Shown here piece after piece: positions 1 through 53,716 of a stretch of 64,000 nt of DNA; position 1 is the first letter of the stretch; each line of letters begins with the position of its first letter. Origin of the DNA: Acinetobacter baretiae (GTDB taxonomy: Bacteria > Pseudomonadota > Gammaproteobacteria > Pseudomonadales > Moraxellaceae); the NCBI RefSeq assembly GCF_015627105.1, contig NZ_VTDM01000004.1, forward strand, positions 1 to 64,000, given 5' to 3'. Both the position numbers and the translations under genes were made by a program. The notes beneath the pieces are model-generated. The model worked only from the letters and a program-made list of their open reading frames with translations, was not told where the DNA came from and made no database searches.

Positions 1-229
1 CATCGTGATGGATAATGCGGCCTTTCATAAGCGATCGGATATACAGGAGTTATTGGAACACTATGGGCATCAGATTTTATGGTTACCGCCTTATAGCCCT
101 GATTTGAATTTTATTGAAAAGACTTGGGCATGGATTAAGAAAAAGAGAAAAGAATGGCAAGAGGATTGTATTGATCGACTCTTTCAGATGTTTTTTCATG
201 TCTGTATGAGTAATTAGATTGTTTGACTA
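1..229 (+). mobile_element. IS630-family insertion sequence, right end only
   Basis: This is the terminal part of an insertion sequence that enters from the left edge. It carries the end of a DDE transposase gene. To its right, cas7 sequence resumes in frame at about position 233, reading leftwards from the cas7 start. The junction contains TATA at 228-231, which fits the TA target duplication of IS630/Tc1 elements. I place the element end at 229, but 227 is equally possible because the TA is doubled. The left end and the terminal inverted repeats cannot be compared inside this window. Confidence 0.75.
2..217 (+). CDS. IS630-family transposase, C-terminal fragment
   Basis: Partial gene that continues off the left edge. 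The visible 70 or so residues contain MDNAAFHK, with the second catalytic Asp, and then [17 protein letters not shown], with the catalytic Glu. This spacing is the end of the DDE domain of IS630-type transposases. The enzyme cuts and pastes the element at TA dinucleotides. The reading frame ends 12 bp before the inferred element end, as is usual for these compact elements. Whether the full transposase is intact cannot be seen. Confidence 0.85.
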
Positions 230-614
230 TAGTACGTTTACACTGGCTAGATGGCACCACATAACCACGGATTAACCCTGTTATCGATGCTAAAACCTGT
301 TGCAAACTTTTTTCTGCTGCAAAGTGTAAATCAAAGGCTTGATCACGAAAGAGGTGGTGACGAATACAGTTTTGACTAATATATAAAGGATTTTCTTTAA
401 AATTAATATCAGCCGCTTCTTTTTTATACTTATAGCCTGTTTCTTCTTTTATTTTTCCAGTGAGATTAGTATAGCCACGTAATTTAGGTAAGGTATGATT
501 ATCTACGGTACGCCCCTCATTACTTAAAGTCGTTGGCCCATTCCAATTCACGACACCATGACCAAAAGCACGAATTTTAAAGTCTACACTCTTAATACCT
601 GTTACTTTTTCCAT
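230..614 (-). pseudogene. cas7fv: Cas7 of the type I-F2 (I-Fv) Cascade, truncated by the insertion sequence
   Basis: The first ~127 codons of a Cas7 backbone gene. The start at 614 is preceded by GGAGAGAGAG as ribosome binding site. Visible stretches are [38 protein letters not shown] and SSQCKRT. From memory these match the N-terminal third of Cas7fv of Shewanella putrefaciens CN-32 (full length near 330 residues), and do not match Csy3 of ordinary type I-F1. Cas7fv coats the crRNA spacer in a minimal Cascade that has no large subunit. After the codons for K-R-T the frame runs into insertion-sequence DNA and continues for about 35 unrelated residues, giving an out-of-family tail that stops at 135. 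Cas5fv, Cas6f and the CRISPR array would be expected further left, outside the window. The effector should be inactive unless a second intact copy exists. Confidence 0.75.
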
Positions 615-683
615 CTCTCTCTCCAACACACTAATAACTTATAAAATTATTTTGATGATTTATTTTTAAATAAACCACATTCA

Positions 684-815
684 CAACTAAAACAACTAAA
701 ACAACTAAAACAACTAAAACAACTAAAACAACTAAAACAACTAAAACAACTAAAACAACTAAAACAACTAAAACAACTAAAACAACTAAAACAACTAAAA
801 CAACTAAAACAACTA
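684..815. repeat. 9-bp tandem repeat (about 14.7 copies) between cas2-3 and cas7fv
   Basis: The unit CAACTAAAA repeats without a visible error. Read on the minus strand, the direction of the cas operon, it is TTTTAGTTG. One minus-strand frame is open through it and would encode (Ser-Cys-Phe)n between a GTG at 844 and a stop near 647, but no ribosome binding site precedes that GTG. The array begins where transcription from the promoter-like sequence at 822-850 would start, so it would form most of the 5' leader of cas7fv mRNA. Perfect short units suggest copy number changes by slippage. It is not a CRISPR array because there are no spacers. Confidence 0.95.
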
Positions 816-821
816 TAGTAT

Positions 822-850
822 TTTATAAATAAACTCCAATGCACTCACAA
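822..850 (-). promoter_or_regulatory. Putative internal promoter ahead of cas7fv
   Basis: On the minus strand TTGTGA (850-845) and TATAAA (827-822) are separated by exactly 17 bp. The predicted start of transcription, near 815, coincides with the edge of the 9-bp array. The 11-bp sequence GGTTGTGAGTG around the -35 box is identical to that in front of cas1 at 4934-4944. Inference from sequence only. Confidence 0.45.
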
Positions 851-909
851 CCTATTATAAAAATAGCTTAGCAAAATAGTATTTTAATTTTTTCCACTGT
901 ATAATTAGC

Positions 910-3900
910 TTATTCAATGACTTGTGGATAAATGAGTTGATCTATGCTCATCATACCCACAGGCTGTTTTTTTGTTTTCACATAATACATCGCATGTGAA
1001 TGTCTAGTTTTTTCGCCACCAATAGGTTCTAAATCTAAGGGGGTATAACTTAAATAAATGGGATATTCAGGTGAACGAGCCAATTTAAGTAATTCCCAAT
1101 CACGATTCGATTTTTTGTATTCTATATCTAAGTTTTTTGCTTTCATCACGTTATGATGCTTTGAATGCATAAAAGCCAGTAAATTCTTATTACTATCTCT
1201 CATTTCAAAACGACCACCCTGAATTTTACTTACCGACTCAGTCAAACCAATCGTTTCTTTTGTATGATCATGTTGTTCAGCGTACGCATATTCATTTAAA
1301 AATTTTGGCTCTAAGCTAGAACTAACCTCACAAACAGCCAATTGCACAAAACGATTATCTCCACGAAGCGATATATTGGCTATTTTAGCTACACCATCTT
1401 TGTTTTTTTTGCTTCGACTCGGCATACTCACTGGATCAAGCACTTTTTGGTTAATCAAACTAACACTTTCTCTTAAAGACTTTTGAAGATCTTCTGTAAT
1501 ATATTTTTGACTCGCAGAGTCAGTATAGAATAACTGATAAATCGCATATAAATCTTTAATTTTTATTACTTCACCATGACCAATATGCTCTTTTAAGAAA
1601 AGTAGCCAAGCTACTGCACTTTGCCATACATGCATCGTAGCTAAAAACTTAGCTTTTTGGCTACTTTGCTTACCTCTTTCAGCTGATTTGGGTACAATTG
1701 TGGTGTAAATATTTGTTGCGCCATGTTTATCAAAGCGATCTAATCGCCCTAAACGTTGCAACCAGTTTTCAGCACTGGTTAAATCCGTATACATTCGCTC
1801 ACAGCTAATATTAAGCGAAGCTTGTACAATAGGGCCGCTTCTTAACACATGATACTGCCGACTGCCATTGTGTTTAAAACTTTCAAATACCCGATTAAAC
1901 CAAAGGGATTTATCTACCTTAGTATATTTTGAATGTAGCAAAATGCTGTTTTCTGTATTTTGATGCAATAAAAAGCCAAGCTGTGCATCTTGTGCAGTAT
2001 TACTAATCACAAAAGTTACTTTATCACTCGGCATTGCTTGTGTAATGAGTGGGCTTTTTTGTTCCGTCTCATCGTAGTTTACAAACTCTATTTGATAATC
2101 TGCTTGGTTAAAACTTGGCACACGAACAATATAACTAGGGTCTATTTTTAAAATATTTTTTATATAAAAATCATGGGGTGTTGCAGAGACAAGAAGTGTA
2201 TTGGCATGCTGATGCTTCAATTTTTTCGCCGCGATGAGTTCTGCAAAAAACAAATTAAATGCAGGCATAACAATCAGCTCGTGAAATTCATCAAAGATAA
2301 TATGTGATTGCATAAAATTAATCATACCTGTCACTTTATGATGCGAAATAATATTATTAATCACTTGATCAATCGTCGTAATAACAATATCACCTGTAAA
2401 ATACTGGTCAGGGTCGGTGTCTTCAGCTTGCTCAAATGTTGTTCCTTGCAATATTTTTTTATACTCACCAGTCAAAATTTCAATACGGCTATGTGGTAAA
2501 TAACTAGATGCTGTTAGATCATGTAATATTCCCAAACATACTTGAACCCGAGGACACACCCAAATAATTTTTTGAGCATCTGTTTTTAATGCCCATTCAA
2601 GCGAAATTTTGGTTTTACCACAACCTGCGGGGCCTTGAAGTACGGCCACATTAGATACCTCATCAAATTCAGCATTATCTTTAAGTGCTGCAAGGGTAGA
2701 TGATGCTTGATCTTGCACTTTATTTTGCTCACTCTCTGAGTATTTAGTATTAAATCCATCTATACACTGTTGAATTTGCTGAGAAATATTGCTTTTTTCC
2801 AATAAAATATGATCAAGTGCTTGAACCAATGTTCCCTCTGCCAAATACTCATTTAAGTCCTCTTTTGTCATTGCAGATACAATTCTATCTGCACTAATGA
2901 CTGCCATTCTCACTAAATTGTGTAATGCATTCGGTTCAACATCACTTACAAATTCTTCTATATTTTCTGATAAATCACTGTATATTTTATATTTTGGTAC
3001 AGCTTTATTTTTTTCTACATGATAGTGATACGACCATTGTGGAAATAGATTTTCAACACTAAAATGTTTCCCCATCAGTTGAATATCTTTTAAAATAGCT
3101 ACTATCTGATCAGTTAGCTTTTCAAGACTCACATCTTTAAGCGAATTTTTAAATTTTTTATCAATACCCTCTGCTGTATCAAAAAATGTATCATCTTTAC
3201 GGTAGGGTCTTGTATGATGCCAATAAACACCATGAAAAATTTGATCACATTGCAATGTATTGAGCTGTGTACTCTTTCTTAATAACGATTCAGCCAATAA
3301 CCAAGAAATTTCGTTGTGTCTAGGATGATTTTCAAAAGAAAAATCTTTAAATCCTCGAACAGTGGTATCAATATGCACACCATCTTCTAAAAGTACAATC
3401 TCATCGGAGGGGTAACTTTTTTTAGATAACCATTGCTGAAATTGTGGATCAAGTTTTCCAATATCGTGCAATATTCCAGTAATAAAAGCAGATTGTGCAA
3501 GATTTTTATTATTAATCTCTAATTTTTCAATGATGTAATAGGCCAAATAACCCACGGAAAATAAGTGCTGGCTCAAGGGTTGTCCAGAAGAATTAGCTAA
3601 AATTGTTTTTGTTTCAATAGGTAAATCCATAAATAACTCCTTTGTTGTATAATTTACTGGAACAATGCCATTACTATTAAATTGACTCCGATTACCCACA
3701 ATCCAAACTAATGCAGTTGATCTGCGGGTGGTTATTTTATGACAAGCTACGGCGGTATTTTTACTCACTGTATTTAACAATAGTCTCTTTACTGCAAGTA
3801 ATCCCTCCTCTGTAATCACCGTTTGCCATGTATGGCTACCTATACGATTTGCAAATGCATCTAAAATTTGTCTTGTTCTCGGTATCGCTTTTTTTTCACA

Positions 3901-3924
3901 CTGACTAATGAAGGTCACAATCAT
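910..3924 (-). CDS. cas3: Cas2-Cas3 fusion nuclease-helicase, type I-F
   Basis: A 1004-residue fusion typical of type I-F. Residues 1-95 form the Cas2 part (starts MIVTFISQCE). The HD nuclease follows, with H120 and the H153-D154 pair in GILHDIGKLDPQF. The superfamily 2 helicase has Walker A GPAGCGKT at 432-439, a DEFH box at 546-549, SATP at 581 and a motif VI-like QRLGRLDR further on. Cascade recruits the protein to unwind and degrade the non-target strand. The Cas2 part also joins Cas1 for spacer acquisition. The start overlaps the cas1 stop by 4 bp (ATGA), so the two are translationally coupled. All motifs look intact even though the downstream effector gene is disrupted. Confidence 0.93.
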   Translation of the reverse strand: MIVTFISQCEKKAIPRTRQILDAFANRIGSHTWQTVITEEGLLAVKRLLLNTVSKNTAVACHKITTRRSTALVWIVGNRSQFNSNGIVPVNYTTKELFMDLPIETKTILANSSGQPLSQHLFSVGYLAYYIIEKLEINNKNLAQSAFITGILHDIGKLDPQFQQWLSKKSYPSDEIVLLEDGVHIDTTVRGFKDFSFENHPRHNEISWLLAESLLRKSTQLNTLQCDQIFHGVYWHHTRPYRKDDTFFDTAEGIDKKFKNSLKDVSLEKLTDQIVAILKDIQLMGKHFSVENLFPQWSYHYHVEKNKAVPKYKIYSDLSENIEEFVSDVEPNALHNLVRMAVISADRIVSAMTKEDLNEYLAEGTLVQALDHILLEKSNISQQIQQCIDGFNTKYSESEQNKVQDQASSTLAALKDNAEFDEVSNVAVLQGPAGCGKTKISLEWALKTDAQKIIWVCPRVQVCLGILHDLTASSYLPHSRIEILTGEYKKILQGTTFEQAEDTDPDQYFTGDIVITTIDQVINNIISHHKVTGMINFMQSHIIFDEFHELIVMPAFNLFFAELIAAKKLKHQHANTLLVSATPHDFYIKNILKIDPSYIVRVPSFNQADYQIEFVNYDETEQKSPLITQAMPSDKVTFVISNTAQDAQLGFLLHQNTENSILLHSKYTKVDKSLWFNRVFESFKHNGSRQYHVLRSGPIVQASLNISCERMYTDLTSAENWLQRLGRLDRFDKHGATNIYTTIVPKSAERGKQSSQKAKFLATMHVWQSAVAWLLFLKEHIGHGEVIKIKDLYAIYQLFYTDSASQKYITEDLQKSLRESVSLINQKVLDPVSMPSRSKKNKDGVAKIANISLRGDNRFVQLAVCEVSSSLEPKFLNEYAYAEQHDHTKETIGLTESVSKIQGGRFEMRDSNKNLLAFMHSKHHNVMKAKNLDIEYKKSNRDWELLKLARSPEYPIYLSYTPLDLEPIGGEKTRHSHAMYYVKTKKQPVGMMSIDQLIYPQVIE

Positions 3925-4883
3925 AATGTAACCTCAGATATATTTTTATTTTTACAAGCTAGTAATTTTATTTGTTCAAACATAAAGTCTAAACATTTAT
4001 GTTCAGTCATTTTTTGTAGCACATACTGACGAAATTCTTGTTCAGTCATTTTTTCTTTGGCACAAATAAAGGCTGATGGTAGTACAACAGCATCTTTAAT
4101 TAAATCAGCCACATCAAATACCAAAGCTCCTCGTCTTGTTTTGCCATGCATCACTGCAAAACTATGTGGAATTCCCAAAACCCATAATGTAGATGCTGCC
4201 AAACCATAAGCCAAATAATTCCCATGATTTAAAAAAGTATTGGTTAAATCACCTTCTTTAGGATTACGAGTAAATGATGTTTGCCCACAACGAGTTACAG
4301 CAATTTTATACAGTTGTTTTGTTGTCTGTGCTTCTGCTAGTAATAAATTTCCCACCTTTGTCAATTTAGGAATTTTTTGAGTAAAGTCTTGTAGTGCAAA
4401 TGCAATATCATGATCACTCAAATGGAAACCATACTCTTTTAAATCTCGGTCTTTGGCCCATACTTTTTCAATATATTGAATACGTGCATATTGAAATTGT
4501 TTGGCAACCTCAAAACGCTTTTGTTCATCAAACCAAAAACTCATCCAATACTGCATGTATTCAGTAGGTCGATACTCATTTTGAGGTGTAAGCCATTCTA
4601 TTTCACTGCCCATAAACAATGGGGTTGCTCCACCGCCAGAAAACCCCACCAATACGCCTGCTGTGGCAAGCATACGCATGGCCGCCTGAGTAATAGATGT
4701 TCCTGTTCCTAAAATAATGACGGTGGTATTAGCAATCGGAATATTCCAATACTGATTTTCATGTTTTGCTTCAGTCAAATATAAAACTCGACCATCTTTT
4801 TGCATCACACGACAGTATTCTAAATAGTAGATATTGGCTCTTTTGGAATGTAAGATTGCTTTCAAATCTGTTATTTGCTGCAT
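3921..4883 (-). CDS. cas1: Cas1 integrase, type I-F
   Basis: A 320-residue Cas1 of the I-F kind. It is the metal-dependent integrase that inserts new spacers at the leader end of a CRISPR array, in complex with the Cas2 part of Cas2-3. Candidate catalytic residues are E184 (LLLAEAQTTKQ), H246 (AVMHGKTRRG) and D257/D260 (LVFDVADLIKD), in the order and spacing known for the family. It is the first gene of the leftward operon and overlaps cas2-3 by 4 bp. No array or leader lies upstream, in 4884-5366. The gene appears complete. Confidence 0.95.
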   Translation of the reverse strand: MQQITDLKAILHSKRANIYYLEYCRVMQKDGRVLYLTEAKHENQYWNIPIANTTVIILGTGTSITQAAMRMLATAGVLVGFSGGGATPLFMGSEIEWLTPQNEYRPTEYMQYWMSFWFDEQKRFEVAKQFQYARIQYIEKVWAKDRDLKEYGFHLSDHDIAFALQDFTQKIPKLTKVGNLLLAEAQTTKQLYKIAVTRCGQTSFTRNPKEGDLTNTFLNHGNYLAYGLAASTLWVLGIPHSFAVMHGKTRRGALVFDVADLIKDAVVLPSAFICAKEKMTEQEFRQYVLQKMTEHKCLDFMFEQIKLLACKNKNISEVTL

Positions 4884-10709: not shown

Positions 10710-11264
10710 TTAACGGTTGTTTTTATCTTCGTCTTGATTATCTTCAAACTTTTGTTCAGCTTCAAAGTTATTGCTTTGAGGTGCTGCACCAAAATTGCCT
10801 TGGTTAAAACCACCGCCGAAGCCACCTTGGTTTCCACCGCCGAAGCCACCTTGGTTTCCACCACCAAAGCCACCTTGATTTCCACCGCCGAAGCCACCTT
10901 GGTTTCCACCGCCGAAGCCACCTTGGTTTCCACCGCCGAAGCCACCTTGATGTCCACCACCGAAGCCACCTTGGTTTCCACCACCGAAGCCACCTTGGTT
11001 GTTGCCTGCATTAAAGTTTGAACCCTGACCTGGAGCACCTGCTGGAGCACCTGCTGGACGTGGATTTCTTGCAGGTACAACTGTAGAGATGGCATGTTTA
11101 TACACCATTTGACTGACAGTATTTTTTAAAAGTACAACGTATTGGTCAAATGATTCAATATGGCCTTGTAGCTTAATACCGTTTACCAAAAAAATAGAAA
11201 CAGGAATACGCTCTTTGCGCAAAGAGTTTAAGAAAGGATCTTGTAAGGTCTGGCCTTTAGACAT
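10710..11264 (-). CDS. hfq: RNA chaperone Hfq with long glycine-rich tail
   Basis: Residues 1-66 are a normal Hfq core. Sm1 spans [20 protein letters not shown] onward, with the distal and proximal RNA-binding residues Q8, Y25-equivalent F25 and K31 region, and Sm2 is YKHAIST. It forms a hexamer that pairs small RNAs with mRNAs. Residues 67-184 are an extension: an Ala/Pro/Gly stretch, eight copies of (N/H)QGGFGGG at 89-152, then an acidic end ([11 protein letters not shown]). E. coli Hfq has 102 residues, whereas Acinetobacter and Moraxella Hfq are known to be long and Gly-rich. It follows miaA, as in many gammaproteobacteria, with its own promoter room of 93 bp. Confidence 0.97.
10809..11000. 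repeat. Eight 24-bp tandem repeats inside hfq
   Basis: Exactly 192 bp made of eight 24-bp units encoding (N/H)QGGFGGG. The nucleotide copies are nearly identical; differences include GAT for GGT and CAAAG for CGAAG. Such in-frame units can expand or contract without breaking the gene. All copies keep the same eight-residue period, apart from one His for Asn in the third. Confidence 0.93.
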
Positions 11265-24460: not shown

Positions 24461-24621
24461 TATTTTTGTTACTTATTATTTTTAGGTAAAATCATCTTTT
24501 TTTCATACACGTCATACACGTCATACACGTCATACACGTCATACACGTCATACACGTCATACACGTCATACACGATAATAAGGGAAAAACAATACAATTT
24601 AAATAATTAAATATAAAACAA
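24461..24621. repeat. Dispersed intergenic element, copy X, expanded internally
   Basis: Same block order as copies at 17567 and 19119: GTTACTTATT, T run, GGTAAAATCATC, TTTCATACAC, AAAAACAATAC, ATTTAAATA, ATATAAAACA. The TCATACA block has become a 9-bp tandem array here. Confidence 0.5.
24504..24574. repeat. 9-bp tandem repeat (about 8 copies of CATACACGT)
   Basis: Seven full units and one of 8 bp, all identical. The period equals that of the array in the cas operon, but the unit is different. It sits inside copy X of the dispersed element. Confidence 0.95.
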
Positions 24622-53433: not shown

Positions 53434-53606
53434 TCATTGTTTTGAATTTTAAATCATTATAGCCTTTTCTCAGCGCAGACCAAATGTCATCTAAAACCAC
53501 TTTCATATTAAATCACATATCATTTTTATGAGACGCAGTTGCGATAATGAATGTTTAAAATAAATAAATGAATGCGTGAAATATTGGTTCAAACAAAAAT
53601 AATCTT

Positions 53607-53676
53607 GAGTAGTGAGTAGTGAGTAGTGAGTAGTGAGTAGTGAGTAGTGAGTAGTGAGTAGTGAGTAGTGAGTAGT
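53607..53676. repeat. 7-bp tandem repeat (10 copies of GAGTAGT)
   Basis: Ten perfect units, in the divergent spacer between yigZ and the DUF1653 gene. A TATAGA/TACTAT-like -10 is 10-15 bp downstream, so repeat number could alter promoter spacing. Third short tandem array in this window. Confidence 0.95.
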
Positions 53677-53716
53677 GTAGAAAAATACTATAGAATATTA
53701 CAAATCAACGACCACC

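Follow-up and report, generated by a model that had tools for sequence, protein, structure and literature searches.

Type I and V-A CRISPR-Cas systems can possess CreR, a crRNA-like RNA that regulates cas genes and represses cas promoters (PMC12737573). In Acinetobacter I-F1 loci (WCHA45, LoGeW2-3 and ANC3789) the spacer between cas3 and csy1 holds CreTA, which is built from two psi-repeats and a 20-nt guide, uses a CC PAM and leaves positions 6, 11 and 18 unpaired (PMC10097628). Type I-Fv (I-F2) systems have also been described in Acinetobacter (PMC9428484), and the locus considered here is of this type. It lies in a stretch of 64,000 nucleotides, called the window below, from a genome of 2.58 Mb in 70 contigs (G000).

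In the window, cas1f (3921–4883), cas2-3 (encoding Cas3f; 910–3924) and a 5′ fragment of cas7fv (232–614, about the first 126 codons) are all on the minus strand. The Cas3 protein is 75% identical to that of Acinetobacter apis. The cas7fv fragment is cut by the end of an IS630-family element (1–231, plus strand, with a transposase C-terminus at 2–217), and this end has 19 matches across the genome. The gene is found in two pieces, with profile positions 1–126 in the window and positions 128–317 at the extreme end of contig C25 (L046), where cas5fv, cas6f and an ordinary I-F repeat array (repeat GTTCACTGCCGCATAGGCAGCTTAGAAG, about eight copies) follow. The type I-Fv gene set (cas1f, cas2-3, cas7fv, cas5fv and cas6f together with an I-F repeat array) is therefore complete except that cas7fv is split. 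Gene content, gene order and the I-F repeat are the same as in the Acinetobacter I-Fv systems described previously, while the interruption of cas7fv by IS630 and the long, array-bearing cas3–cas7fv spacer set the present locus apart (PMC9428484). Since IS630 separates the two halves of cas7fv, the gene for the Cascade backbone is broken in this assembly. In a further I-Fv locus from the Moraxellaceae (L065, genome G305) cas7fv is interrupted by a mobile-element-like insert.

Repeat-guide elements in cas3–cas7fv spacers

With one genome per species, cas7fv is present in 15 of 176 Acinetobacter genomes. The spacer between cas3 and cas7fv measures 1–15 nt in eleven Acinetobacter loci, 91 nt in A. 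apis, 100 nt in G148, 329–391 nt in two further loci and 295 nt in the window. Spacers of at most 20 nt, which have no room for a repeat-like element, are seen in 26 of 37 I-Fv loci, and none of the ten I-Fv loci from other Proteobacteria has a long one. Wherever the spacer exceeds 150 nt and the locus can be judged (six loci, the window included), it contains a repeat-like element oriented opposite to the cas strand; L062 stands outside this count as a masked stretch prevents judgement. In L062 three antisense repeat-like elements with spacers of about 26 nt are located at 4380–4530, close to the N-terminus of a cas3 fragment. For A. apis (L040) and G148 (L033) the spacers yield no convincing element, at most a partial hairpin (E 0.022).

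In five loci (L034, L043, L057, L060 and L061) the antisense repeat-like element precedes a short guide for which the spacer also contains a matching second site, flanked by CC. The match extends over 15 of 15 scored positions in L034, L060 and L061 and over 14 of 15 in L043, and none of 2000 shuffled guides does as well in any of these four loci. For L057 it is 11 of 15 (P = 0.015, 2000 shuffled guides). Positions 6, 12 and 18, which are flipped out in type I complexes, are skipped in the scoring, and the mismatches in L034, L060, L061 and L043 are almost all found there. Given their sequence similarity, L034 and L043 are best counted as a single lineage. The guide target of L057 is directly abutted by TTGAAA-N17-TACAAT, a promoter-like sequence for cas7fv.

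On the basis of these sequences the five elements are candidate CreR elements in type I-Fv. As in CreR, a degenerate repeat-guide element adjoins the cas genes and its guide finds a match beside a PAM in the control region of the effector, nearly perfect in four of the I-Fv relatives; the differences are the subtype, I-Fv (I-F2), and the location within the cas3–cas7fv spacer (PMC12737573). The I-F1 CreTA of Acinetobacter is likewise a spacer element after cas3 with two psi-repeats, a 20-nt guide and a CC PAM, and the likeness extends to the unpaired positions 6, 11 and 18. There, however, the downstream gene is csy1, which is absent in I-Fv, and the window has no recognised toxin-like mini-ORF (PMC10097628). 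We found no published account of self-matching guides in I-Fv in the literature available to us, and they may already be known. With the intact spacers of the five loci, self-regulation could be tested in the smallest I-F Cascade.

The corresponding element of the window is degenerate. Its repeat-like part, psiR1 (847–874, plus strand), has a hairpin with a 5-bp stem and a 5-nt loop (5-5-5) and the handle CTTAGCAA, identical to that of L057. Using a covariance model built without the window element, psiR1 scores 17.3 bits and is the top match in the 64 kb, with E 0.03 for the window and 2.2e-4 for the spacer. A psiR1-like element arises in 0.17% of dinucleotide shuffles of the spacer (P about 0.002, computed once the pattern had already been seen). 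The stem is nearly all A-U, with −0.9 kcal/mol compared with −8.6 for the true repeat, and it vanishes when folded in context. A possible psiR2 (894–912, plus strand) is very degenerate and not significant alone (3.5 bits, E 2.2). Outside the array and adjoining the cas genes there is thus a CRISPR-repeat-like element, of which only one repeat is clear; a search of the spacer against Rfam gave no CRISPR repeat and nothing relevant.

The guide-like sequence AATAGTATTTTAATTTTTTC (875–894, plus strand) shares 11 nt with the candidate target ATAGTATTTTA at 815–825 (plus strand), on the edge of the array and the −10 hexamer (P about 0.004, again calculated after the pattern had been noticed). At the PAM position (812–813) the sequence is AC, the guide does not match at position 1, and other sites score equally when flipped positions are tolerated. 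No better CC-flanked target was found for this guide when the whole window was searched. A candidate crRNA-like RNA is predicted to start at 867 on the plus strand (CUUAGCAA). We consider that the window element may be a decayed CreR-like element, distinguished from CreR by its degenerate repeat, its non-CC PAM and the IS-broken locus in which it is placed (PMC12737573).

The 9-nt array, the promoter-like sequence and the leader

The sequence-only reading had described a perfect 9-nt repeat array before cas7fv, and this is indeed present between cas3 and cas7fv, at 683–815 (minus strand), with the unit TTTTAGTTG as read on that strand, period 9, 14.8 copies and 100% matches. The genome contains no second array of this unit. 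The array is flanked by two direct repeats on the minus strand, GTTGTGAGTGCATTGGAGTTTATTTATAAAATA (819–851) and a diverged copy, GTTGTGAATGTGGTTTATTTAAAAATA (661–687). As both flanks are diverged copies of one segment, GTTGTGARTG..GTTTATTTA (equalled in 0 of 2000 shuffles), the sequence suggests that the array arose from a local duplication. None of the 14 other Acinetobacter I-Fv genomes has this array, and a plasmid search with the cas3–cas7fv spacer as the query returned no match.

The promoter-like sequence noted earlier, TTGTGA-N17-TATAAA at 850–822, exists as written on the minus strand: the −35-like hexamer (845–850) extends into the 5′ end of the opposite-strand repeat-like element and is separated by exactly 17 nt from the −10-like hexamer (822–827). 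The exact pattern TTGTGA-N15..19-TATAAA, which was picked post hoc, is found at two sites in the 64 kb, with 0.21 expected. Its sigma-70-type score is 9 out of 12, with a −10 hexamer that ends in A. A scan at this score gives 20 sites in 5.4 kb compared with 24.7 in shuffles; since such sites are equally common in shuffled sequence, the promoter match by itself is not above chance.

What speaks for a promoter of cas7fv itself is the surrounding spacer. The gap of 295 nt is long, as in the five I-Fv loci whose gaps contain a guide-matched, CC-flanked site, and the window guide shares 11 nt with the −10 region. This makes an own promoter plausible, and the putative decayed CreR-like element gives the candidate moderate, not strong, support. 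As regards an own promoter of cas7fv, the earlier proposal is at most partly supported. The repeat leader of about 130 nt that was also proposed depends on a transcription start near 815, and this start is a prediction. Leader RNA from 815 to 560 is less stable than 200 of 200 shuffles (z +2.3), so that the array would leave the leader unusually unstructured; folding against these shuffles revealed no regulatory fold. The good Shine-Dalgarno sequence of cas7fv (GGAGAGAGAG followed by ATG; 624–615, minus strand) is placed about 60 nt past the array.

Possible explanations for the spacer

We favour, with modest confidence, a decayed autoregulator and a passive array in an IS-broken locus. The cas3–cas7fv spacer would then serve to control the I-Fv effector operon. 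In the intact form, represented by the relatives, it would hold a promoter for cas7fv–cas5fv–cas6f and an antisense mini-CRISPR, and the short guide would steer the I-Fv Cascade to the spacer site flanked by CC and so repress expression, following the CreR/CreA logic. In this genome only a degenerate remnant of the mini-CRISPR would be left. A 9-nt minisatellite would have expanded between the promoter with its target site and cas7fv. This array would belong to a lineage-wide tendency to perfect 7–9-nt intergenic arrays and would probably be passive leader DNA. As IS630 has cut cas7fv, neither regulation nor leader would matter for interference in this strain. Observed are the sequence features, the matches between guide and target in the relatives, the split by IS630 and the further arrays; promoter activity, the CreR function with its decay here and the passivity of the array we infer. 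A bolder version, which we think unlikely, holds that CreR-type self-regulation recurs in I-Fv with its seat in the cas3–cas7fv spacer, that growth of the minisatellite as far as the edge of the guide target altered the PAM and freed the operon from its repressor, and that the IS insertion came afterwards.

The main competitor, which we judge somewhat unlikely, is that both the repeat-like element of the window and its guide match are chance features of AT-rich DNA, with cas7fv being read through from the cas1 promoter across a neutral, array-swollen spacer. The weak hairpin, the non-CC PAM, the insignificant second repeat and the absence of an Rfam match are all in agreement with this, as is the tight operon found in most I-Fv loci. 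Against it, psiR1 is the best match in 64 kb and has the same place and strand as the elements in the other long I-Fv spacers. Alternatively, the promoter could drive not cas7fv but CreT, the toxic small RNA of a CreTA module, within whose gene the array would lie and which it would have destroyed. CreTA does fill the corresponding spacer of I-F1 loci (PMC10097628), and a dead toxin would be needed to survive the disruption of cas7fv. However, no toxin candidate was found, and no mini-ORF with a Shine-Dalgarno sequence is present between 815 and cas7fv, so that the locus lacks this mark of a CreTA addiction module; such an origin appears very improbable.

The sequence-only reading itself saw the array as a regulatory 5′ leader, a contingency locus in which copy number tunes cas7fv expression. 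A perfect array that separates a promoter-like sequence from cas7fv, the ability of such arrays to slip and the unusually unstructured leader would all suit this role, but the array is not conserved in relatives, unrelated arrays are present elsewhere in the genome, the ribosome-binding site is 60 nt away and cas7fv is disrupted by IS630. Copy-number tuning is hence not supported, and we regard it as quite unlikely. A (Ser-Cys-Phe)n leader peptide, proposed as another product of the array, has next to no chance of being real. There is an open frame at 844–647 on the minus strand, yet any 9-nt unit without a stop always yields a stop-free frame. The predicted transcription start at 815 lies downstream of the sole start codon, GTG at 844, and below 815 this frame has none, which contradicts the peptide. 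Because of the position of this GTG, the proposed promoter and the peptide are mutually exclusive, barring transcription from further upstream.

Perfect short arrays elsewhere in the genome

In 371 kb sampled from the same genome there are five perfect arrays with units of 7–9 nt, all unrelated to each other and none within an open frame of at least 100 codons, compared with none in 272 kb sampled from A. apis. Besides the cas7fv array, the window has two perfect intergenic arrays: (TCATACACG)8 at 24503–24574, upstream of proC, and (TGAGTAG)10.3 at 53606–53677, with a small ORF about 40 nt downstream. Contigs C1 and C17 open within 199-base perfect 8-nt arrays (L080:1–199 and L128:1–199, units TTTAGATG and GAATGGTT; two of the 23 contig ends inspected). 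Long arrays thus fragment the assembly, and their exact copy numbers need caution.

Given the lack of the cas7fv array in relatives and the unrelated perfect arrays elsewhere in the genome, the simplest reading is that it reflects a lineage-wide minisatellite habit and is not a device of cas7fv. In Beggiatoaceae, abundant intergenic TAACTGA direct repeats are described with a possible role in RNA leaders (PMC4679880). Numerous short-unit intergenic arrays in one genome are common to both cases, but there one unit is found at many loci, whereas here each array has its own unit, so that they have no binding site in common. The array by itself is ordinary and of low interest, and it is the self-matching I-Fv spacers of the relatives that are worth an experiment. 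A 24-nt tandem repeat (CCACCGCCGAAGCCACCTTGGTTT, eight copies, 10810–11000) is also present in the window and is probably coding.
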